Source of the DNA: Ferrimonas kyonanensis DSM 18153
Lineage (GTDB): Bacteria; Pseudomonadota; Gammaproteobacteria; Enterobacterales; Shewanellaceae
Direction: 5' to 3'
DNA length: 64,000 nucleotides
Assembly: GCF_000425405.1 (NCBI RefSeq)
Contig: NZ_AUDJ01000001.1
Location: forward strand, 62,001 to 126,000
The notes under the pieces were generated by a model that was given only the letters and a program-made list of their open reading frames with translations, was not told the origin of the DNA and did no database searches. How positions within the stretch are numbered: the stretch's first letter is position 1; each line of letters begins with the position of its first letter. The translations under genes and the position numbers were made by a program. Shown here in pieces: positions 5,816 through 41,380 of this stretch.

Positions 5816-6627
5816 GCTTGGACCTCGTCAAAATCAATGGTATCGGCGCCGTTGTACACCAGGAAATGGCGGCCCTTGGCCCGGGAGACCAGGGTAATGC
5901 CCATCTTTTGTGCCAGTTCCAGCCCCATCTCGGTTATGCCGGAGCGGGACACCAGCACCGGAATGCCCATCTTGGCCACCTTGATCACCATCTCCGACGT
6001 CAGTCGACCGGTGGTGTAGAAGATCAGGTCGTCGCCGTTCTGGCGTCCCAGAAACAGTTCCCCGGCCAGGGTGTCTACGGCGTTGTGGCGGCCGATGTCT
6101 TCCACGAACGACAGGATTTCTGCGTCGCGACAGACTCCGCAGCCGTGCACGGCACCGGCGTTTTTATAGGTTTCGTTGTATTCCCCGAGGTTTTTCAACA
6201 GCCCGTAGATGGTGGATTGTTTGATGGCGGGCACCGGCAGTTGGATCTCATCCAGGCCGGCCATGAAGCTGCCAAACACCGAGCCCTGGCCACAGCCGGA
6301 GGTGACGGTCTTCTCACTGAGTTTCTCTTTCAGCCCGTCGGTGGATTCACTGGTGATCACCGCGGCAGAGTTCACGTCCCAATCGACAATCACCGATTCA
6401 ACTTTGTCGATGTCGCTGATAAAACCCTGGTTCTTCAAATAGCCCAGGGCCAGTTTTTCGGGCCGGGCGCCCAAGGTCATCAGGGTGACGATGGGTTGCC
6501 AGTTAAGATACAGGGTCAACGGGCGTTCGCAGGCGATTTGACGTTCCTGTGGCTGGCCACTGGCGTCGATGGCAACCACGGACTTGGTCAGTGGAGCGTC
6601 GGTGTCGGTGCGACTGAACTGGGGCAT
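5812..6627 (-). CDS. fdhD: FdhD-family protein, non-canonical paralogue
   Basis: FdhD carries sulfur from IscS to the molybdenum cofactor of formate dehydrogenases and is needed for their activity. Family motifs are clear: VEDIGRHNAVD, TTGRLTSEMV, SRSGIT and the closing GRHFLVYNG. Oddly, the position where FdhD normally has its functional CxxC reads SGCGQGSVFG, so the second Cys is lost, and a CGVC pair appears instead about 50 residues later (AVHGCGVCRDAE), where canonical FdhD has the THAAA segment. The canonical copy is the other fdhD in this window (23085-23918). I chose the ATG at 6627 (MPQFSRTD); a TTG four codons upstream is the alternative. It is divergent from the first formate dehydrogenase operon and is probably specific to the Cys-containing enzymes. 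Confidence 0.88.
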   Translation of the reverse strand: MPQFSRTDTDAPLTKSVVAIDASGQPQERQIACERPLTLYLNWQPIVTLMTLGARPEKLALGYLKNQGFISDIDKVESVIVDWDVNSAAVITSESTDGLKEKLSEKTVTSGCGQGSVFGSFMAGLDEIQLPVPAIKQSTIYGLLKNLGEYNETYKNAGAVHGCGVCRDAEILSFVEDIGRHNAVDTLAGELFLGRQNGDDLIFYTTGRLTSEMVIKVAKMGIPVLVSRSGITEMGLELAQKMGITLVSRAKGRHFLVYNGADTIDFDEVQA

Positions 6628-6749
6628 AGGGGCTCTCAATTACGCGTGTAAGGGAATAAACAACGAATCAGTGCATTAGACTAGCAAAATTCGTTCCAGC
6701 CATAACCCGGGTGTTTGCCGCTGATGGCGTGATCTGGGTCACGGGATTA

Positions 6750-6796
6750 GGAACACAATGACCCACTGCGGGTAAGGGCTTGGGACAAAATGTCCT
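6750..6796. promoter_or_regulatory. Paired 15-bp palindromes (sites A1 and A2) between fdhD paralogue and the fdh operon
   Basis: Site A1 (6750-6764) reads GGAACACAATGACCC and site A2 (6782-6796) reads GGGACAAAATGTCCT. Both fit GGGnCA-N3-TGnCCC, and their centres lie 32 bp apart, close to three helical turns. The same element recurs at 15762 and at 33240-33380 ahead of the other formate dehydrogenase units. Binding by the regulator at 4910-5815 is inference. Confidence 0.55.
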
Positions 6797-6810
6797 GCCG
6801 ATGGCCAAAG

Positions 6811-6828
6811 TCGTGACTCGGTTCACGA
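6811..6828. promoter_or_regulatory. CRP-like site upstream of the first fdh operon
   Basis: TCGTGACTCGGTTCACGA is an exact 6-6-6 inverted repeat that contains the CRP core GTGA-N6-TCAC. It lies 73 bases upstream of the DUF3305 start. CRP-family control of anaerobic genes is usual in Shewanella relatives; occupancy here is untested. Confidence 0.45.
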
Positions 6829-6900
6829 AAAACAGGCTATTTTTATTGGAACGCTTTTTGCTTTGTTATTGCGGGTTTCCCAATCTAGGGCACAAAATCG

Positions 6901-7368
6901 ATGCAACGAACCGACAATATCTGGCCTCTGCAGGTCAAGCTGAAATCAAAACAGGTCACCATGGGCCGCTGGAGCCAGACCACCTGGGAGGTGGATCAGC
7001 TGCTGCCGGCGTCGGCGGATCCCATCGAGGGCGCCACCATCGTGGGTCTGGAGCTGTTTAAAGACGAACGCTCTAACTACCGGTTGAACCTGGATCTGGA
7101 TAACCCGTTGTTGTTTGTGGTGTGCGATGAAACCGAAGCTGGGGAGCCAGTTCCGATGCTGGTGACCGCGAACCAGAACATCGCTGCCGGTTGCCTGGAG
7201 AGCGATCAGCCGGTGTTTACCTGTCCCATTCCTCAGGCCATTGGTTGCTGGATTGAAGCCTATATTACTCGTCATGGCGAGCAGCCGATCTGTGCTCATC
7301 GACGCAAGCACATCGACGTGCGTGGTGAGCTGAAGGCCAAGCGGGAGAAGCGCGATGAGCGATACTAA
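6901..7368 (+). CDS. DUF3305-family protein of the formate dehydrogenase region
   Basis: This 155-residue cytoplasmic protein matches the DUF3305 type found next to Shewanella-class formate dehydrogenases. It has an all-beta N-terminal part (WPLQVKLKSKQVTMGRW, a central GLELFKDERSNYRLNL) and a basic tail. No catalytic motif is visible. It is the first gene of the operon, overlaps the DUF3306 gene by 14 bases, and is followed by the Fe-S protein and the chaperone, so a role in enzyme maturation is likely but unproven. Confidence 0.85.
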   Translation: MQRTDNIWPLQVKLKSKQVTMGRWSQTTWEVDQLLPASADPIEGATIVGLELFKDERSNYRLNLDLDNPLLFVVCDETEAGEPVPMLVTANQNIAAGCLESDQPVFTCPIPQAIGCWIEAYITRHGEQPICAHRRKHIDVRGELKAKREKRDERY

Positions 7369-7945
7369 ATCCGGCTTGCTGTCCCGCTGGCAGCAGCGCC
7401 TGACCAAGGTCAAGGAGGAGGAGCAGGCACTGGAGGCGTCGTTGCAACAGGCGGCGCCCGCCGAGGTTGAGCTTCCCGCCGAGGACAATGGGCCCGACGC
7501 CGTGGCGCAGGCCGAGACCGAGTCGGTCAGCGACAGCGGTGAAGCCGTCGAGACTGACGCTCTGCCGGATCCCGACGCCATTGAGGAGGGAGGCAGTTTT
7601 GCCCAGTTCCTGGCGGAAGGGATCGATCCGGACAAGAAAAAGAGCGCCCTGCAGGCGTTGTGGCGTCAGCCGCAGTACAACGTCACCGACGGCATGGCCG
7701 AGTACGCCCTGGATTACAGCAACCAGCCCAAGCTCAGCACTCAGGTGGCCAAAGAGGTGGCGAAAAAGGTGTTCCGACATCTGGATGCCAAGCTGGAGGA
7801 AGAGCGACGTCAGGAGGCGTTGGCCAAGGCGCGTGCCGAGGCGCCCGCACTGGACGAAAAAACGTCAGAATTACCCATCGTTGCCCAGGAGGATGGACAA
7901 AATGACCCATCCGATCCGGACATCGGCAAAGAACAGCAGAGCTGA
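7355..7945 (+). CDS. DUF3306-family protein of the formate dehydrogenase region
   Basis: At 196 residues it shows the DUF3306 layout: an N-terminal LLSRWQQRL segment, a long acidic low-complexity stretch (about residues 20-75), the core SFAQFLAEGIDPDKKKSALQ with ALWRQPQYNVTDGMAEYALDY, and an amphipathic charged C-terminus. It overlaps DUF3305 upstream. The acidic linker and lack of enzymatic motifs suggest an assembly or adaptor protein. The stop lies 124 bases before the Fe-S gene. Confidence 0.85.
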   Translation: MSDTKSGLLSRWQQRLTKVKEEEQALEASLQQAAPAEVELPAEDNGPDAVAQAETESVSDSGEAVETDALPDPDAIEEGGSFAQFLAEGIDPDKKKSALQALWRQPQYNVTDGMAEYALDYSNQPKLSTQVAKEVAKKVFRHLDAKLEEERRQEALAKARAEAPALDEKTSELPIVAQEDGQNDPSDPDIGKEQQS

Positions 7946-8069
7946 CCGGCATTTCCGTCAGCCATAGGCGCCAGGCCTTGGTACAGGCCTTGCAACTTAC
8001 CGACCACCAGCCACGACCCCGTCCGCTGCATGAGACGATGGCGATGGCGACAGAAAACAGGAACGCACA

Positions 8070-9746
8070 GTGAGCAACCCTCAACACGCCGTAGCCGAAC
8101 AGGCGCTGGCTCAGGTTCAGATGTTGGAGAACCTGATTCCGCAAACGGTCACCTATACCACCGCTGGTCATCTGTTGATCATCGGTGCTGAAGACGCCAT
8201 TCGCTTGGCCGCGGCCAGCCTCGATGGCATGGCCAGCATCACCTTGGTGGCCACCGACCCCATTACCAGCCAGGATGAGGCACATCTGGCCGAGGTGATG
8301 CGGGCGGTTGAACAAACTGAAACTCTGCCCAGCTACTACAGCAAACAGGTCAAGGTGAAAGGCTTTTTGGGTCAGTACCAGGCGTTCATCAAAGACGACA
8401 GCGGCAAAGAGCTGGAGTTGGCACCGGCGGCGGTGCGTCGTCCCCACTACGATCTGGTGCTGGATTTGGGCCAGCAACCGAGCCTGACGCTGGAGCTGTT
8501 GCCACCGGGGTATTTTCATGTCGCCGACGATGCCGACAAGCTGGCCGGCGCGGTGGCGCAGTTGCCCGAGCTGGTCGGAGAGTTTTCTAAGCCCAGATAC
8601 GTGAAGATCAATGCCGACATTTGTGCGCACCATGGCAGTGGCATCGATGGCTGCAACCGCTGTCTGAACTTCTGTCCGGCGGACGCCATTGCCAGCGTAA
8701 ACCACAAAATTGAGGTAGACCATAACCTGTGCCACGGTGCCGGCAGTTGCTCCAACGCCTGCCCCACCGGTGCCATAAGTTATGATCAGCCGTCCCCCAC
8801 GGTGTTGCAGGACTACCTGAAGCGCCTGGTGACCCGTTACATCGAGCTGGCCGACAGCCGTCCAGTGGTGCTGTTTCATGACATGACCGCCGGCGATGAG
8901 GCATTAAAAGCGTTGCAGGCCTTGCCGGGTGCGGTGCTGCCGGTGGCGCTGGAAGAGATTGCCGTTGCCGCCACCGACAGCTGGATGTCGGCACTGGCCT
9001 GGGGCGCTCGCCAGGTGGTGGTGTTGACCACCGAAGTGACGCCGCCGACCTTGATGGCCCTGTTGCAGCGCGAGCACAAGCTGGCGTCGGATCTGCTGCA
9101 GGCCATCGGTCTGGAAGATCGGATTCAGATGCTGGCCAGCGCCGAGTTGGACAGCCTGTCAGCATTGGTGGAACAGAGTGCCAGCTGGCCGGAACTGGCC
9201 ATCGCGGCCTACCCGTCCAACCTGCCCAAGCGGGACGCCTTCTACAACGGCCTGGATCATCTAAACGGCTGTGCCGCCGCCAATGATGAGACCCTGTCGA
9301 TTCCGCACCTGCCTTACGGCGCGGTGGTGGTGGATGCTGAAAAGTGCACCTTGTGTCAGAGCTGTTCCGCCCTGTGCCCGACCCGGGCCCTGATGGATGG
9401 CGGTGACATGCCAGCGCTGAACTTTACCGAGCAAGCTTGCGTGCAGTGTGGCTTGTGTGAAAAGGCCTGTCCGGAGCAGGCGATCACCTTGATCAGCCAG
9501 GTGACCCTGGATCGTGAGCATCGCCAGCAGTCCAGAGTGCTGCACGAAGAGGAGCCCTTCGAGTGCATTCGCTGTAGCAAGCCGTTTGCCACCAAGGCGG
9601 TGATCACCAAGATCACCACTCAGATGGAGAACCACAGCGCCTTCGCCGGCGATGCCCTTAAGCGGATTCAGATGTGTGAAGACTGTCGAGTTAAAGACAT
9701 GTTTGAAGACATCATGAACGATCCAGAAAAACAGTTGCGCGTCTAA
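8070..9746 (+). CDS. Multi-cluster 4Fe-4S protein of the formate dehydrogenase operon
   Basis: This 558-residue protein has no signal peptide, so it is cytoplasmic. Cysteine motifs occur in four blocks: CNRCLNFCPADAI with a second CHGAGSCSNACPTGAI (residues 180-240), CTLCQSCSALCP and CVQCGLCEKACP (about 425-475), and a C-terminal CIRCSKPF...CEDCR zinc- or iron-binding pair. That gives at least four ferredoxin-type clusters. Start is GTG, preceded by AGGAACGCACA; no in-frame ATG lies nearby. Homologues stand at this place in Shewanella fdh clusters. It may move electrons or assist cluster/cofactor loading before TAT export; which of these is not visible. Confidence 0.88.
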   Translation: MSNPQHAVAEQALAQVQMLENLIPQTVTYTTAGHLLIIGAEDAIRLAAASLDGMASITLVATDPITSQDEAHLAEVMRAVEQTETLPSYYSKQVKVKGFLGQYQAFIKDDSGKELELAPAAVRRPHYDLVLDLGQQPSLTLELLPPGYFHVADDADKLAGAVAQLPELVGEFSKPRYVKINADICAHHGSGIDGCNRCLNFCPADAIASVNHKIEVDHNLCHGAGSCSNACPTGAISYDQPSPTVLQDYLKRLVTRYIELADSRPVVLFHDMTAGDEALKALQALPGAVLPVALEEIAVAATDSWMSALAWGARQVVVLTTEVTPPTLMALLQREHKLASDLLQAIGLEDRIQMLASAELDSLSALVEQSASWPELAIAAYPSNLPKRDAFYNGLDHLNGCAAANDETLSIPHLPYGAVVVDAEKCTLCQSCSALCPTRALMDGGDMPALNFTEQACVQCGLCEKACPEQAITLISQVTLDREHRQQSRVLHEEEPFECIRCSKPFATKAVITKITTQMENHSAFAGDALKRIQMCEDCRVKDMFEDIMNDPEKQLRV

Positions 9747-9758
9747 ACAGAGGTAATC

Positions 9759-10388
9759 ATGACAGAACAACAACACCATCGAGTGGTTTCCGAAATTCAA
9801 CAGTTTCGCGCCGACATCTATCAGCTGCTGGCGGGCCTGTTGCGGGACGCTCCCTCTCAGGAGCTGCTGGATTTTCTGGGTAATCTTGAGGTTAACAGCG
9901 ACGACGACGGCGAGATGGTCAAAGCCTGGAGCAGCCTTAAGCTGGCGGCGCAGACCTACAGCGTGGAAACCGTGACTCAGGAGTACACCGACCTGTTTAT
10001 CGGTCTGGGCCATGGCGAGGTGATTCCCTACGCCAGTTGGTACATGACCGGGACCTTGATGGACACCCAACTGGTGCAGTTGCGCCAGGATCTGGTGCGC
10101 CTTGGTTTTGCCCGGGAAGACGCGGTCAAGGAGCCGGAAGATCACATCGCCGCCTTGTGTGAAGTGATGTCGGTACTGCTGCTGGAAAACCCTCAGCACG
10201 TGCAGTTGAGCTTCTGGCAGAAGCACCTGAAGCCCTGGGCCGATCGGCTTTGGAGCGACCTGGCTAATGCCCAGGGTGCCGCCTTCTATGCCGCCGTGGC
10301 CCATCTGGCGGAGCAGTTCTTTATTCAGGAGAAGGATGAGTTTGCAGCCCTGACCCTGGAGACCCCGGTGCAGGAGGGCACCCTGTAA
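9759..10388 (+). CDS. TorD/DmsD-family molybdoenzyme chaperone
   Basis: This all-helical 209-residue protein carries the TorD signature EYTDLFIGLGHGEVIPYASWYMTG and a PEDHIAALCEVM helix. TorD-type chaperones bind the TAT leader of a molybdoenzyme and hold it until cofactor is inserted. Its position 12 bases after the Fe-S gene and just before the small TAT protein and FdhA1 makes the formate dehydrogenases its likely clients. A second, diverged family member is at 55917-56507. Confidence 0.9.
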   Translation: MTEQQHHRVVSEIQQFRADIYQLLAGLLRDAPSQELLDFLGNLEVNSDDDGEMVKAWSSLKLAAQTYSVETVTQEYTDLFIGLGHGEVIPYASWYMTGTLMDTQLVQLRQDLVRLGFAREDAVKEPEDHIAALCEVMSVLLLENPQHVQLSFWQKHLKPWADRLWSDLANAQGAAFYAAVAHLAEQFFIQEKDEFAALTLETPVQEGTL

Positions 10389-36044: not shown

Positions 36045-37121
36045 TTAGAAGTAGTAGCCGACGTTGATGTTGATGCGGCTGTCCCAAGGGGCATCGGGAT
36101 TAGCCAGACCGACGCCCGGTCCACCGGCAAAAGTCATGTTATTGCCGACAATGTAATCAAAGTACGCCCAGATGGGGCCGCGATTGAACGACAGCCCCAG
36201 AACGTTCTGGGTTGAGTCGTCCTGATCCTGACCTTCGGGGACCACCAGCCCATAGTCGTTGTACAGGGTGATGTTGCCCCAGCGAGTATCGAAACGACGT
36301 GACAGGTTGAGGTTGTAACCCGTGGCTTCGCTGGCGATGTCGTAGGCGGCACCGACGACGCCCACGGTCAGGGTGTCGGCGTCGTCACTGCTGTTGTACT
36401 GATAGTGCGTTACCTGAGCCTGAAGGTTCCAGGGGCCGCTGACCCAGTCGGCGTGCAGGGCAGCGGCCCAGCGATCGCCGTTGTCTTCCTCTACCGCGTG
36501 GTACAGCTGCCCGGCTTCAAGGGAGCCGCCCAGATTCAGGTGGCCATCGGCCAACGGCAGTGAGTAGACCGCCCGCAGGTTCAGCTGATTGGTTTCCTCG
36601 TTGTCGCCGATGATGTCGGCGCCGTAACGATCCAAGGTATCACTGCCGTACTCCGGTCCTTTGATAAAGGCGGCATCCAATTGCCAGCGATCCCAATGGT
36701 GGACCACTTTAACCCCGGCGTCGTAGTTGTCTTCGAAGCCCAGGTAGTAGTTGGTGCTGAACCAGTAGCTGTTGGAGATGAACCCCGGCTTGCCGAACGG
36801 TACTTTGACGATGCCGACCTGTACCTGAGTGGTGTCGCTGACATCCATGTAGCCATAGGCACGCTTGACGTAGTTAAGGCCACTGGCGAAGCGGTAATCG
36901 ACGCTGACACCGATGTCGTCTATCTTGCCGTCGAAGGTGACCGACATGGCATCAAAGGCGAAGTCGCCACCTTTGTCTTTGGAGGCGTCGCTGTAGTCCT
37001 TCCAGCCGTAGTTGGCTCGGACGAAGCCGCCCAGTGCGATGTCCTGACTGGCGGCGTGCACCAAAGGGGTCAGGGTGAGTTGCGTCAGCGCCAGCAGGGT
37101 GGCGAGTTTTAACGGATGCAT
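36045..37121 (-). CDS. OprO/OprP-like outer-membrane porin
   Basis: At 358 residues it has a signal peptide (LATLLALTQLTLTPLVHA) from the ATG at 37121, then GGFVRANYGWKDYSD, a string of amphipathic strands and a C-terminal NVGYYF. The middle part VQVGIVKVPFGKPGF is typical of phosphate-selective-type porins. It follows the DUF3299 gene by 35 bases. Neighbouring PhoD suggests a phosphate or organophosphate role, whereas the cupin/flavoprotein genes upstream suggest an organic substrate; sequence does not decide. Confidence 0.8.
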   Translation of the reverse strand: MHPLKLATLLALTQLTLTPLVHAASQDIALGGFVRANYGWKDYSDASKDKGGDFAFDAMSVTFDGKIDDIGVSVDYRFASGLNYVKRAYGYMDVSDTTQVQVGIVKVPFGKPGFISNSYWFSTNYYLGFEDNYDAGVKVVHHWDRWQLDAAFIKGPEYGSDTLDRYGADIIGDNEETNQLNLRAVYSLPLADGHLNLGGSLEAGQLYHAVEEDNGDRWAAALHADWVSGPWNLQAQVTHYQYNSSDDADTLTVGVVGAAYDIASEATGYNLNLSRRFDTRWGNITLYNDYGLVVPEGQDQDDSTQNVLGLSFNRGPIWAYFDYIVGNNMTFAGGPGVGLANPDAPWDSRININVGYYF

Positions 37122-37156
37122 GGTGTTTTCTTGTCCCTTGTAATAAGCAAACCGGG

Positions 37157-37621
37157 TCATTGGCTGGGGTATTCGGCGGTGTCGGATACCACTAGGGTGT
37201 AGGCGGTGCTGAACAGACCGGAGAGGTGTTTCTCCACCTGCAGTTCGCCAATCAGATACACCGGTTTACCCTCTGTGGCCTTGACCTCAACCCCGGGCAA
37301 CAACTTGACTTGAATCAGCTGGTTGGCCGGTGGTGGTGGCTTGTGAAAGCAGATCTCCGGCTGTGGACTGAGCACGGTAATGGTTGGCTGATCGCTGTCG
37401 GCCTGATGGTGATGATCGTCGCCGAGATGACTGGCAACGCTGTTTTCAATCACAAAGCCGGGAATCACCACCTGTTGGCCATTCAGTTCGGGGTTGATGC
37501 GTTCAAATACCGAGCTGGCGTTGGCATTGGCGTTGAGATCCGCCCACAGCAGGGAGTGGGGGGCAGCGAGGGCTTGGCCACTGGCCAGTGCGGCCAGAAG
37601 CAGCAGGGGAATCAGTTTCAT
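37157..37621 (-). CDS. DUF3299-family secreted protein
   Basis: This 154-residue protein has a signal peptide (LLLLAALASGQALA) and the DUF3299 core QVVIPGFVIEN, then ICFHKPPPPANQLI, then VYLIGELQV. A His-rich stretch GDDHHHQAD near residue 70 could bind metal. DUF3299 proteins are periplasmic and often sit beside transporters, with no known activity. It starts 14 bases after a terminator and ends 35 bases before the porin. Confidence 0.82.
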   Translation of the reverse strand: MKLIPLLLLAALASGQALAAPHSLLWADLNANANASSVFERINPELNGQQVVIPGFVIENSVASHLGDDHHHQADSDQPTITVLSPQPEICFHKPPPPANQLIQVKLLPGVEVKATEGKPVYLIGELQVEKHLSGLFSTAYTLVVSDTAEYPSQ

Positions 37622-37634
37622 AGGTATGGCCCGG

Positions 37635-37660
37635 AAAAAAGGGTCAGCGGATGCTGACCC
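37635..37660 (-). terminator. Terminator between the secreted cupin and DUF3299
   Basis: On the minus strand GGGTCAGC pairs with GCTGACCC over 8 bp with a 4-base loop, followed by six T. It splits the run of genes: the flavoprotein, cytochrome and cupin form one unit, and DUF3299/porin would depend on read-through or a cryptic promoter. Confidence 0.78.
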
Positions 37661-37750: not shown

Positions 37751-38491
37751 TTACTGAGGACGCACCGCGTCGAACCCATAGCCGCCTTTGCCTTCACGCA
37801 CGGCGTGCGATTGGGTGTAAGGAATGAAGTCGAACATCAGCGTTTCGCCGGCACCCACATCCTGAGGCCACTGGTACTTGAAGGTAGAGAATTTGCCATC
37901 TTGCGGGAACCAGTACATGTAGATCAGATCCTGATCGTCATAGGTGTTGGGGGTGTAATGCATCGCCTTGGACGGGATCTCGATGTAGTCACCAGGCTGG
38001 AAGTGTTGCATGCGACCCTGAGACCAGGTCAGGCCCTCGCCACTCAGACCGTAGTAACACTCCATTTCACGGTGGTAGTGAGGAATGGCGGTACCCGGTG
38101 CCACTCGTACCAAACCGATAACGGTCGGTTCATCGTTCAGCTCTTTCCAGCACATGCCCACTTCGGTGGCGGCGGCGCCCCCCTTAGGGCAGGGGATCAG
38201 GTTTTCCGGATCGTCGATGCGCCAGGTCAGCCAACCGGAGTCGTTGGCACCCTTACCGCCATGGTCGTTGGACTTAACGGTGTAGATGTCCTTCTTGCCG
38301 GACTGCAGCTCTTCCAGGTAGGCCAGTGCTTGCTCCTGCTTACACACTTGTGGCATCAGCTTGGTCGGTGCGTACGGCGTGTAAGGCAGTGGCTTATCGT
38401 TGTGCCAGGGCTTGTCGGCAGGTTTGCCGGCGGCACAGGCGGCCGTGCTGGCGACCAGCAGCGCGGTGGTGATTGTCAGTTTCTTCATCAT
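37751..38491 (-). CDS. Secreted cupin with a DMSP-lyase-like metal site
   Basis: At 246 residues it has a signal peptide (ITTALLVASTAACA), so it acts in the periplasm. The single cupin barrel has PHYHREMECYYGLSGEG, i.e. HxHxxxExYY, and the second half PGDYIEIPSKAMHY supplies the last His. This His-His-Glu-Tyr-His set is the pattern of DMSP-lyase cupins (DddK, DddQ, DddL, DddY), where the Tyr is the catalytic base. The protein is shorter than DddY (about 400). It lies 25 bases after the cytochrome gene, in the same operon as the flavoprotein. DMSP lyase activity is a hypothesis; other cupin lyases or isomerases remain possible. Confidence 0.7.
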   Translation of the reverse strand: MMKKLTITTALLVASTAACAAGKPADKPWHNDKPLPYTPYAPTKLMPQVCKQEQALAYLEELQSGKKDIYTVKSNDHGGKGANDSGWLTWRIDDPENLIPCPKGGAAATEVGMCWKELNDEPTVIGLVRVAPGTAIPHYHREMECYYGLSGEGLTWSQGRMQHFQPGDYIEIPSKAMHYTPNTYDDQDLIYMYWFPQDGKFSTFKYQWPQDVGAGETLMFDFIPYTQSHAVREGKGGYGFDAVRPQ

Positions 38492-38516
38492 CTTTTTCCT
38501 TGGAAGGGAGGTATTG

Positions 38517-38870
38517 TTATTTAAACTTCGGGTAATTGAAGTTGTGGCATTCCTGGCACAGCGCTTTCTTGGGCGTGTGCTCGCCGTGGCACTCCTGACA
38601 CGGGGCCTCTTTGCCGTAGTGCATGCTGTTGTGCGGGTTTTGTTTAACCTCGTCGCCTTCGCGGGCGGTCATCTTGGCCACATCATCAACGTCATGACAC
38701 TGCAGGCAGGCTTCATCGGATGGGAACTTGCCCATGCCCTGATCGTGGCAGCTGTCGCAGCCGGCTTCGTACACGGTGGCGTGGTGTTCACGCTTGTTCA
38801 TGGCCTGAGTGTTAAAGCTGGCGGCCAGGATAACGGCAGCGGCGGTAAGCAGTACTTTTGAGCGGGTCAT
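38517..38870 (-). CDS. Periplasmic tetraheme cytochrome c
   Basis: This 117-residue protein has a signal peptide (LLTAAAVILAASFNTQA) and four heme motifs: CDSCH, CLQCH, CQECH and CQECH. Extra His residues (HHATVYE, NPHNSMHYG) can serve as distal ligands. The order and spacing resemble the N-terminal heme domain of Shewanella flavocytochrome c fumarate reductase, here as a separate protein. It starts 5 bases after the flavoprotein gene and is its likely electron donor, fed by a CymA-type quinol dehydrogenase. Confidence 0.9.
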   Translation of the reverse strand: MTRSKVLLTAAAVILAASFNTQAMNKREHHATVYEAGCDSCHDQGMGKFPSDEACLQCHDVDDVAKMTAREGDEVKQNPHNSMHYGKEAPCQECHGEHTPKKALCQECHNFNYPKFK

Positions 38871-38875
38871 GGCGA

Positions 38876-40384
38876 TTAGGCCTCCATAATTGAACGAGCG
38901 GCTGTCACGCCGAATGCCAGACATTCCGGGGTAGAGCAGCCACCCAGTCGGCTGACGCCGTGGATACCACCGGTCACTTCGCCCGCAGCGAACAGGCCTG
39001 GAATCGGCTTGCCGGTCTTGGCGGCCAGCACTTCGGCTTTGGTGTTGATCTGGATGCCACCCTGGCAGTAGTGCACCTTGGGCCACAGACGCTGAACGAT
39101 GAAGGGGGCGGTCAGCTTGATGCCGCGACCGGCGTTCATGCGCTTGCCAAATTGTGGGTCTTCACCCTTGTCGACGTAGCTATTCCAGTCGGCGATCTGT
39201 TGCTTCAGTGCCTTCAGGGGCACATCGAAGTGCTTGGCGATGGCTTCCACGGAATCGAATTCCCACGCCACGTTGTACTTCAGTACCTTAGCCATGGAAG
39301 GATCGTTCTTGGCTTCGTGCTTAGGCGCAATCAGCAGGGCAGGGTTGGGATTGCCGTCCTGGTCGCGACGCTGCAGCTCCAGATCGGCGCGGGTCTTACG
39401 GTCGGCGATCTCGTTCATGAAACGCTGGCCGGTGTTGCGGTCGATGGCGATGGAGTGGGGGAAGTTGTACAGCGAGAAACCGGCACCGTAGCCGAAACCG
39501 CCTTCATCGGGCGAGGCCCAGGGGCCGGACTGAATGTGGGCCAGGTGCACCGGAGTGGCGCCGGCGGCCAGCATTTCGATCAGGCCATCGCCGGTGGCAC
39601 CTTTGGCGTTGGTACAGCCAACTTCGGCGGTCAGGGTTGGATCCTGGGCCTGTCTCAGGCTGATGTTGTAACCAAAACCTCCGGTGGCGATGATGACGCC
39701 GCGCTTGGCTTTGATGTTGATTAGCTCGCCGCTGTCCTCAAAACCGAAGTGGTAGCCTTTGCGAATGTTGACGCCGATAACCCGGCCTTCTTTGTCGTGG
39801 ATCAGGTGCTCAAACTTGTGACGGATCTGAGTCTCAACCCCCATCTTACGGGCAGTTTTCAGCATGGGCTGAATGAAGCCGGAGCCGGAGCGCTCCACCA
39901 CCTGGTGGCTGCGAGTGGCGCTGGTGCCACCGGTGGTGATGATGAAGTCGCGGTAGACGCAGCCGCAGTCTTTGGTCATCTGGTACACGTAGGGGCCGAG
40001 CTCGGCACTGTGGCGCAGCAGAGACTCGCTGGCGACACCGCGGCCGGATTTCAGCTGGTCCTTAACCATCAGCTCGGCACTGTCGTTGATGCCCAGCTTC
40101 TTCTGCAGATCGGTACCGGCAAAGCAGGCCTGACCGGCGTTAAGGGTACTGTTGCCGCCGTACACGCCCATCTTTTCAAAGACGACCACGTCTTTGGCGC
40201 CTTTGTGCTTGGCTTCCACCGCCGCTGCCAGGCCAGCAAAACCGGAGCCGATGATCACCACTTCGTACTCACCGTCCCAGCTGACGTCGTCTTCGGCGCA
40301 CTTGGCGGAAGCGGTTAGGGGTAACATGGCTCCGGCGGCGGCCACACCGGCGCCGAGCTTCATAAACGAACGTCTGTCATGCAT
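38876..40384 (-). CDS. TAT-exported flavoprotein reductase, fumarate-reductase superfamily, non-fumarate substrate
   Basis: At 502 residues it has twin-arginine RRSFMKLGAG and the FAD fold EVVIIGSGFAGLAAA. The acid-catalyst Arg of flavocytochrome c is kept (about residue 328, RFMNEIADRK), as is the carboxylate-binding Arg in GVSRLGG. The His of AHPT and the Thr-Glu pair that hold the second carboxylate of fumarate are absent, and the HH pair has become HY (VHYCQGG). A monocarboxylic enoate such as acrylate or methacrylate is therefore likelier than fumarate. With the next gene it forms a split flavocytochrome c. Confidence 0.85.
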   Translation of the reverse strand: MHDRRSFMKLGAGVAAAGAMLPLTASAKCAEDDVSWDGEYEVVIIGSGFAGLAAAVEAKHKGAKDVVVFEKMGVYGGNSTLNAGQACFAGTDLQKKLGINDSAELMVKDQLKSGRGVASESLLRHSAELGPYVYQMTKDCGCVYRDFIITTGGTSATRSHQVVERSGSGFIQPMLKTARKMGVETQIRHKFEHLIHDKEGRVIGVNIRKGYHFGFEDSGELINIKAKRGVIIATGGFGYNISLRQAQDPTLTAEVGCTNAKGATGDGLIEMLAAGATPVHLAHIQSGPWASPDEGGFGYGAGFSLYNFPHSIAIDRNTGQRFMNEIADRKTRADLELQRRDQDGNPNPALLIAPKHEAKNDPSMAKVLKYNVAWEFDSVEAIAKHFDVPLKALKQQIADWNSYVDKGEDPQFGKRMNAGRGIKLTAPFIVQRLWPKVHYCQGGIQINTKAEVLAAKTGKPIPGLFAAGEVTGGIHGVSRLGGCSTPECLAFGVTAARSIMEA

Positions 40385-40451
40385 AGTTTTTATCTCATGC
40401 TGTGAATGTGAAATTACTGTAGCGCTGTTAACGCGGGGTAAAATAAGCGCT

Positions 40452-40468
40452 GGATCACAGTGAGATCC
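40452..40468. promoter_or_regulatory. Candidate TetR operator between flavoprotein and tetR
   Basis: GGATCACAGTGAGATCC is a 17-bp pseudo-palindrome with 7 of 8 pairs matched. It lies in the 225-bp divergent region, 67 bp from the flavoprotein start, so it could control both directions. Confidence 0.5.
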
Positions 40469-40609
40469 GGTTGAAAAAAGTTTTCGTGAAGGGGTCTCAA
40501 AAAAAGATTTTGGCGGGGTTTAGCAAATAATTTTTGTGGCCTTAACACCGAATTTTTTTCTGGCTCTGTGCGAAAGTAGCGTCAACTTAATTGCCGACAG
40601 GTCTTTCTC

Positions 40610-41380
40610 ATGCATTGCCCGAAAACCAAACTGGACAGCCTGCGTTGTAATCAGTTATTGGACGTTGCCGAAGAGTTAGTGGATGAACATGGGGTGGTCT
40701 CATTCCGGTTTGCCCAGATCGCGAAAGAGGCGCAATGCTCTAATCACACCCTGTATAAGTTCTTTCAATCCAAGGAAGATGTGTTGGTGTGCCTGTTCCT
40801 GCGCAATTGCACCTCCAACTACATTCCGCTGTTTCTGGAGTGCCATCCGGAGTTGACCGATCTGGAGCGGGCAGCGCTGCCGGCGGTGTTTTCTCTGGTG
40901 GCGGTGGAGAAGAGCCCAACCTTCAATATTCTGCGGGTGGTGTCGATCAACAGCATGTTCTGGCAGATGGCCAGCGATGAAAAAGTGAACCTGCTCAGGG
41001 CCAGGGTCAATATGTTCTGGAGCCGGGTGCATCTGCATATTGAGGAGGCGCAGCAGAGCGGGGCGCTGCACGCCAACGAGGCTCAGGTGATGGAGTTAAC
41101 TCAAGCCATCTATTTCTTTATGGCTGGGTGCTTGTCTTCTTATGAAAGTCAGTTGATGGAGCCGAAGTACCTGACCGAGAAAAATCCGACCTACCTTCGT
41201 CACCTGGCAGAGATGATGAATCGTTATCAGTGGAACGAGATCGCCACCGCCAGTAAATTTGAATCCCTGTTCAATAAAGTGGATGGGTTTTTTACCCAAC
41301 ACTACCAACCCAATAAGAACTGCCAGCGCTGCCAGCAGCTCAATGGTCTTAATGACTGCCGTCAGTTGACCTCTGAATGA
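40610..41380 (+). CDS. TetR-family regulator with C-terminal cysteine motif
   Basis: This 256-residue protein has a TetR helix-turn-helix (VSFRFAQIAKEAQCSNHTLYKFF, read as consecutive segments) and a long ligand-binding domain. It is 50 residues longer than usual, and the tail has NKNCQRC followed by C ten residues on (CxxC-x9-C), suggesting metal or redox sensing. It is divergent from the flavoprotein/cytochrome/cupin operon and is its probable regulator. AcuR, the acrylate-responsive regulator of DMSP genes, is also TetR-type, but this similarity is only of family. Confidence 0.85.
   Translation: MHCPKTKLDSLRCNQLLDVAEELVDEHGVVSFRFAQIAKEAQCSNHTLYKFFQSKEDVLVCLFLRNCTSNYIPLFLECHPELTDLERAALPAVFSLVAVEKSPTFNILRVVSINSMFWQMASDEKVNLLRARVNMFWSRVHLHIEEAQQSGALHANEAQVMELTQAIYFFMAGCLSSYESQLMEPKYLTEKNPTYLRHLAEMMNRYQWNEIATASKFESLFNKVDGFFTQHYQPNKNCQRCQQLNGLNDCRQLTSE

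Follow-up and report, generated by a model that had tools for sequence, protein, structure and literature searches.

We analysed a 64,000-nucleotide stretch of the genome of Ferrimonas kyonanensis DSM 18153 (contig NZ_AUDJ01000001.1, positions 62,001 to 126,000; hereafter the window), which belongs to a 4.93 Mb assembly, and focused on a minus-strand cassette that encodes an exported flavoprotein, a tetraheme cytochrome c and a secreted cupin. The flavoprotein (38876–40384, 502 amino acids) belongs to the flavocytochrome c family (TIGR01813, 554 bits against an NCBIfam cut-off of 285) and contains no heme motif. Its twin-arginine signal was recognized from the motif MHDRRSFMKLGAG, with a Pfam TAT_signal score of 20.5, slightly below the cut-off of 22.7. 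The secreted cytochrome (38517–38870, 117 amino acids), whose Met start was read at 38870 and whose stop was read at 38517, has four CXXCH motifs and matched Cytochrom_c3_2 at 43.9 bits (Pfam cut-off 25). It is followed by a cupin of 246 amino acids (37751–38491), termed cupin A, which has a Sec-type signal at its start, as judged by eye, and a Cupin_2 score of 43.7 bits (Pfam cut-off 27.2). Divergent to the cassette lies a TetR-type regulator (40610–41380, plus strand; TetR_N 34 bits, Pfam cut-off 24). A preliminary description of this DNA had named a twin-arginine flavoprotein, a separate tetraheme cytochrome, a secreted cupin and an opposite TetR gene; all four are present, and the family scans confirmed their assignments.

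Two further minus-strand genes, which were absent from the preliminary description yet are part of the conserved set, encode a secreted-type DUF3299 protein (37157–37621; PF11736, 52.8 bits) and a porin-like outer-membrane protein of 371 amino acids (36045–37160). The latter had no Pfam match, and the porin call was read from the sequence. The gaps between the flavoprotein, cytochrome and cupin genes are 5 and 25 bases, and these three genes are likely in one transcription unit, as had been described. The membership of the last two genes is less settled: because a terminator-like hairpin followed by TTTTTT (37641–37660, minus strand) precedes the DUF3299 gene, they may be transcribed less, or apart. 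This class of site was not above chance, with four terminator-like sites in the region scan against 4.9 expected.

The cupin and its kinship to DddK

Cupin A contains the motif HYHREMECYY at residues 138–147 and a distal His178, in agreement with the HxHxxxExYY plus distal His set previously claimed for it. Among 30 aligned relatives, H138, H140, E144, Y146 and H178 were invariant and Y147 was kept in 29; Cys50 and Cys145 were also invariant in this alignment. The genome has seven other Cupin_2 places; of the 12 reading frames taken there, none contained HxHxxxExYY and one (L173) contained HxHxxxE. Among the Cupin_2 places compared, the full motif was thus restricted within the genome to three members of the cupin family and to DddY, a pattern that exceeds what chance would give.

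The nearest solved relative of cupin A, both by sequence and by fold, is DddK, a SAR11 cupin lyase of dimethylsulfoniopropionate (DMSP; PDB 6a53, 5tfz). DddK was the best match in a PDB sequence search (E 5.4e-7) and in a profile search (E 7.6e-8). An AlphaFold model of the cupin had a mean predicted local distance difference test score of 79.7, with values of 79 or more in every block between residues 31 and 220. In a Foldseek search with this model, DddK structures held ranks 1 to 6 (E 1.3e-9 to 5.2e-9, 27–29% identity), with template modelling (TM) scores of 0.66–0.70 by target and 0.36–0.38 by query. RemF, the quercetinase/dioxygenase YxaG, TM1459 and oxalate decarboxylase ranked closely after DddK; DddY was not among the best 50 of 1766 fold matches listed. 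Scored against a DddK piece, the three family members of the genome, cupins A, C and B, reached 29.6, 25.1 and 17.4 bits, respectively, compared with 13.5 bits for the next cupin of the genome and 3.1 bits for its DddY.

The kinship extends to residues with described roles in DddK, where H56, H58, E62 and H96 are metal ligands, Tyr64 is the base, Tyr122 holds the carboxylate, and Tyr21, Trp26, Phe108, Trp110 and Phe117 form a box for the sulfonium group, according to passages of two papers (PMC10686828, PMC12582016). By sequence alignment, the four metal ligands correspond to H138, H140, E144 and H178 of cupin A, and Tyr64 and Tyr122 correspond to Y146 and Y206; all six residues were invariant in the 30 rows. 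The box comparison covers three residues, with Tyr21 and Trp26 falling outside the alignment. Trp110 corresponds to the invariant W194, Phe117 to F201 (27 Phe and 3 Trp in the 30 rows), and Phe108 to M192 (18 Met, 5 Phe, 5 Leu and 2 Ile). Cupin A differs from DddK, whose chains have 136–150 residues, in its signal peptide, in extensions of about 80 residues ahead of the aligned stretch and about 25 behind it, and in Met for Phe108. We propose that cupin A is a DddK-like beta-eliminating lyase, a prediction drawn from sequence and model comparison.

Cupin A is not a plain DddY, in line with what the preliminary description had supposed. This identity was rejected on its length, DddY being a two-domain protein of about 400 residues, on the NCBIfam scan and on the profile comparison. 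No NCBIfam model matched cupin A at E values up to 1, in a library that holds two DddY models, and an hhalign comparison of the cupin profile with DddY, signal peptides removed, found only the 10-residue motif at a probability of 0.2%.

Conservation of the cassette and its sister cassettes

Loci with cupin A occur in Ferrimonas and Shewanella. We compared 22 distinct ones (the window, L042, L045 and L067–L085; L043 and L044 duplicate L068 and L067). The flavoprotein and cytochrome genes lie directly upstream of cupin A in all 22, with the flavoprotein of L076 cut by the contig end, and the DUF3299 gene follows cupin A in every one. A divergent TetR gene is present in 21, L076 being cut, and DUF3299 is followed by a porin relative in 19, the exceptions being L071, L074 and L078. 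Two related groups, cupins B and C, occupy similar cassettes. A flavoprotein and a cytochrome accompany cupin C in all three distinct loci (L027, L051, L057) and cupin B in 26 of 31, not in L094, L100, L104, L110 and L115, of which L104 and L110 begin about 1.4 kb from a contig end. Porin relatives are also found in the cupin-B, cupin-C and DddY cassettes.

Outside Ferrimonas and Shewanella the cupin family is rare: in a sample of the class it occurs in two of 369 genomes, one of them the window's own. Most of the 51 loci of a named collection, which was assembled with patterns derived from alignment A1, come from Shewanella or Ferrimonas; Paraferrimonas, Falsirhodobacter and a member of the Granulosicoccaceae contribute one each. 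In Falsirhodobacter sp. alg1 (L094; 8001–8816 and 8959–10521), a cupin-B relative adjoins an alginate lyase (PF08787, 183 bits), and no flavoprotein was found in the locus. In L054 (7726–9705), cupin B stands opposite its TetR in a locus without reductase or cytochrome. Among the loci compared, DUF3299 was confined to the cupin-A cassettes. A DDHHHQ stretch is present in the window copy, as is a CxH conserved in the alignment, and our guess is that this protein might handle metal for the cupin.

To place the reductases, a tree was built of 44 flavoproteins hand-picked from 102, in which they grouped according to the adjacent lyase. The cupin-A reductases paired with the cupin-C reductases (support 99/98), and together these joined the DddY-linked clade (98/93), so that the window reductase is a sister of the DddY branch and does not lie inside it. 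Three members of this clade, L150, L151 and L154, lack an adjacent DddY and are counted in the DddY group of 10. Reductases linked to cupin B and to an aromatic amino acid lyase lie outside this grouping. Identity rows labelled as cupin A at about 40% were cassette-B reductases near a cupin A and were dropped. Among the cupins, B and C share 47% identity, A and B 33%, and A and C 34%. The cupin grouping, with B nearest C in a tree that has long branches and no outgroup, differs from that of the reductases, in which A goes with C, and this suggests that lyases and reductases may have swapped partners in evolution.

The reductase pocket follows the same division. In an alignment from which L166 was left out, the cupin-A, cupin-C and DddY groups, 21 rows in all, shared an identical pocket loop, IQSGPWASPDEGGFGY, which differed in the cupin-B and aromatic-lyase groups. 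Fourteen positions were fixed in the former three groups and absent from the latter two. The catalytic Arg329, His438 and Arg479 of the window flavoprotein are kept, and Gly287 and Ala301 stand at the positions of His365 and Glu378 (Fcc3 numbering), which we take to hold the second carboxylate in FccA. On these pocket residues, a fumarate reductase of the FccA type was rejected. FccA (1d4c) and the urocanate reductase UrdA (6t85) belong to the same flavoprotein family, with 460 residues aligned from the 38–40 region to the end, but the window protein lacks fused hemes as well as the two FccA residues. An identification of the cytochrome as CctA was also rejected (NCBIfam 24 bits, cut-off 180). 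We propose that the window flavoprotein is a reductase of a monocarboxylic enoate and that the tetraheme cytochrome is its electron donor. The substrate is read as acrylate-type, which would be either the same as that of the DddY-linked reductases or somewhat differently substituted.

A described system of similar composition is Mrd/Mcc of Geobacter sulfurreducens AM-1, in which a separate flavoprotein and a tetraheme cytochrome reduce methacrylate and acrylate, not fumarate (PMC4427408). Set beside the window flavoprotein by description, Mrd is likewise a heme-free twin-arginine protein with a catalytic Arg, His and Arg, encoded in one operon with its cytochrome; the difference is that the passages of that paper concerned with the pair name neither a lyase nor a porin (PMC4427408).

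Two further cassettes of the same genome place a lyase beside such a reductase. L162 encodes DddY (NCBIfam 708 bits, cut-off 650; PDB 5y4k, "DMSP lyase DddY", E 2.4e-73) and AcuI (NCBIfam 443 bits, cut-off 440) together with a tetraheme cytochrome, a porin and a flavoprotein 58% identical to that of the window. In L163 (G000:C1:230000-246000; 5905–9911), a flavoprotein and a tetraheme cytochrome are encoded beside a lyase of aromatic amino acids (PF00221, 412 bits; histidine ammonia-lyase model 276 bits, below its cut-off of 539), with a porin beyond an opposite gene. The aromatic-lyase cassette also occurs in Shewanella (L157, L158, L160, L161) and would be a variant fed by histidine, phenylalanine or tyrosine. 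DddY cassettes of Shewanella and Ferrimonas resemble that of the window in combining a periplasmic cupin-type lyase, a separate flavoprotein (57–61% identical), a tetraheme cytochrome and often a porin. They differ in the lyase, since DddY has about 420 residues and shows no recognizable relationship to cupin A beyond the HxHxxxExYY motif, and in having acuI and LysR-type regulators where the window cassette has TetR and DUF3299. According to a published account of these genes, acuI lies nearby in eight of nine Shewanella with dddY, F. balearica has dddY, and fccA and fccB of Shewanella sp. MR-4 appear in the legend of the figure on acuI and ddd gene locations (PMC3338564). More generally, the F. 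kyonanensis genome encodes eight flavocytochrome c-type proteins above the TIGR01813 cut-off (contigs C1, C3, C5, C6 and C11), and the same search exceeded this cut-off in one of 14 control genomes.

Cupin A accompanies DddY and does not replace it. DddY was found in 11 of 36 genomes compared, the window's own included; all 11 belong to the genus of the window, and they include four Ferrimonas genomes with cupin A (its own, G002, G008 and G011). Among 107 Shewanella genomes, 48 have DddY, 23 cupin A and 40 cupin B, when A and B are split by score and one second hit of 171 bits (G437) is left out. DddY was present in 19 of the 23 genomes with cupin A compared with 29 of the 84 others (Fisher p = 4e-5), and in 27 of the 40 with cupin B compared with 21 of the 67 others, kinship being ignored in both comparisons. 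This co-occurrence speaks for a different precursor or a different condition rather than for cupin A as a mere stand-in for DddY.

Proposed function and alternative explanations

The gene set, its conservation, the protein families, the site residues, the reductase clade and the pocket are established by computation. The idea of a periplasmic lyase working with a reductase, put forward in the preliminary description, gained support from comparison, namely from the DddK-like site, the reductase clade and the two further lyase–reductase cassettes. Considering the DddY and aromatic-lyase cassettes, the grouping of the reductases and their common pocket loop, the best reading of the locus is a cassette for lyase-fed enoate respiration in the cell envelope with an acrylate-type product, which we judge to be somewhat probable. 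That DMSP itself is the precursor seems rather doubtful; another beta-substituted acid is possible, given that cupin A accompanies DddY. The preliminary labelling of the locus with DMSP and acrylate is nevertheless a reasonable lead, an acrylate-type product being likely.

What follows is inferred, from the lyase activity and its product to the flow of electrons out of the quinone pool, the transport and the regulation. The porin would let in a small beta-substituted carboxylic acid. Cupin A would act on it like DddK, as a mononuclear metal lyase, with the metal (bound by H138, H140, E144 and H178) and Tyr206 holding the carboxylate while Tyr146 removes the alpha proton and the beta substituent is expelled. 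This would yield an alpha,beta-unsaturated monocarboxylate, with acrylate or a close analogue as the likeliest candidate. The exported flavoprotein would use electrons from the tetraheme cytochrome to reduce it to the saturated acid. The lyase product would thus serve as terminal electron acceptor and be made harmless at once. TetR would control the gene set, perhaps by sensing the electrophilic product through its cysteines.

Several observations weigh against lyase-fed enoate respiration. To our knowledge, there is no reported activity of a cupin A, B or C or of the DddY-linked reductase itself. The fold match to DddK spans only about 100–110 of the 246 residues of the cupin, as expressed by the TM-score by query of 0.36–0.38, and one of the three alignable sulfonium-box residues, Phe108, is replaced by Met192. 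The Pfam DMSP_lyase score of cupin A was 21 bits, below the cut-off of 27; since the genome's own DddY scored only 17.2 bits, this model does not decide the identity of the cupin. Reductases linked to cupin A and to DddY differ at 59 fixed positions, some of them in the pocket loop. Four loci (L089, L092, L097, L101) have a cupin-A-type reductase and cytochrome followed by the next cassette, with no cupin A. Cupin-B relatives without a nearby reductase occur in Falsirhodobacter (L094), F. senticii (L100) and the Granulosicoccaceae member (L115), so this family is not tied to respiration.

Cupin A could instead be a second periplasmic lyase of DMSP or of dimethylsulfoxonium propionate (DMSOP), with acrylate as the acceptor and with DddY and cupin A serving different conditions or concentrations. 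The DddK-like site and the position of the window reductase as sister to the DddY-linked clade would agree with this, as would a report that all cupin DMSP lyases assayed cleave both compounds, DddK being more efficient on DMSOP (PMC10686828). We nevertheless consider it rather unlikely, because the genome already has a genuine DddY cassette, DddY is also present in 19 of the 23 Shewanella genomes with cupin A, no acuI was seen by eye in the window cassette, and positions 300–303 read GAGF in the cupin-A reductases versus VSNY in the DddY-linked ones. The cupin fold also serves many reactions, as illustrated by RemF, YxaG, TM1459 and oxalate decarboxylase following DddK so closely, and the position of the Falsirhodobacter cupin-B relative next to an alginate lyase points to sugar-acid chemistry in at least one cupin B. 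Cupin A is nonetheless unlikely to be a secreted metal enzyme other than a lyase (an isomerase, dioxygenase, decarboxylase or sugar-acid enzyme) with the task of preparing or altering the reductase substrate, since DddK holds the first six fold ranks, the family never varies at Trp110 or at either of the DddK tyrosines, and the two other cassettes of the genome have a lyase in the same place.

A quite improbable alternative is detoxification without energy conservation, in which the cupin makes a toxic enoate for carbon or sulfur gain and the reductase clears it. Such reductases have been proposed to have evolved to transform toxic acrylate from lyases, but the same source describes two-component enzymes of this type as sustaining respiration in Geobacter AM-1 (PMC4427408). 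The invariant cysteines of TetR are what an electrophile sensor might have, whereas eight flavocytochrome-type proteins in one genome fit a respiratory repertoire.

The location of DddY near fccA and fccB (PMC3338564) and the Mrd/Mcc pair (PMC4427408) are already known. In a literature search that left most subscription journals beyond its reach, we found no description of a short secreted DddK-like cupin with such a reductase, and likewise none of the sister groups B and C. Other lyase–reductase pairs are reported to exist, for example with hydroxycinnamate reductases. Tentatively, cupins A, B and C may be an undescribed family of exported DddK-like lyases, each of which makes its own acceptor in the periplasm from a different beta-onium or beta-substituted acid and which, with DddY and an exported aromatic lyase, follow a general plug-in principle whereby unrelated lyases are recruited to one reductase–cytochrome–porin chassis. 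If so, Ferrimonas and Shewanella would produce acceptors for respiration on site, from osmolytes and amino acids, lyases and reductases would exchange partners in evolution, and the marine cycle of onium acids would include a further secreted lyase family tied to anaerobic respiration. Each lyase has a reductase of its own beside it, so that knowing what one of them acts on predicts the substrate of its partner, and this pairing makes several orphan reductases of Shewanella and Ferrimonas directly testable. Whether periplasmic acrylate-type acids are respired or merely removed would become testable as well.

The TetR regulator and the intergenic region

NemR is a thiol-type sensor of electrophiles. 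The TetR proteins beside cupin-A, -B and -C cassettes share Cys3, Cys61 and Cys238-x-x-Cys241 in all 20 rows of an alignment that omits the short TetR of L048; such invariant cysteines could belong to a metal or an electrophile sensor. Our guess is that the regulator may act as a thiol sensor of the electrophilic product. It was rejected as an AcuR (NCBIfam AcuR 12 bits, cut-off 247).

The region between the flavoprotein and TetR genes (40385–40609) likely holds their promoter and operator. In an operator search, no palindrome in this gap met the criterion, and a sigma-70 scan of the region gave no sites against 1.9 expected. Upstream of the flavoprotein, a block containing TGTGA is conserved in a ten-row alignment of cupin-A loci and could be a CRP-type half site.

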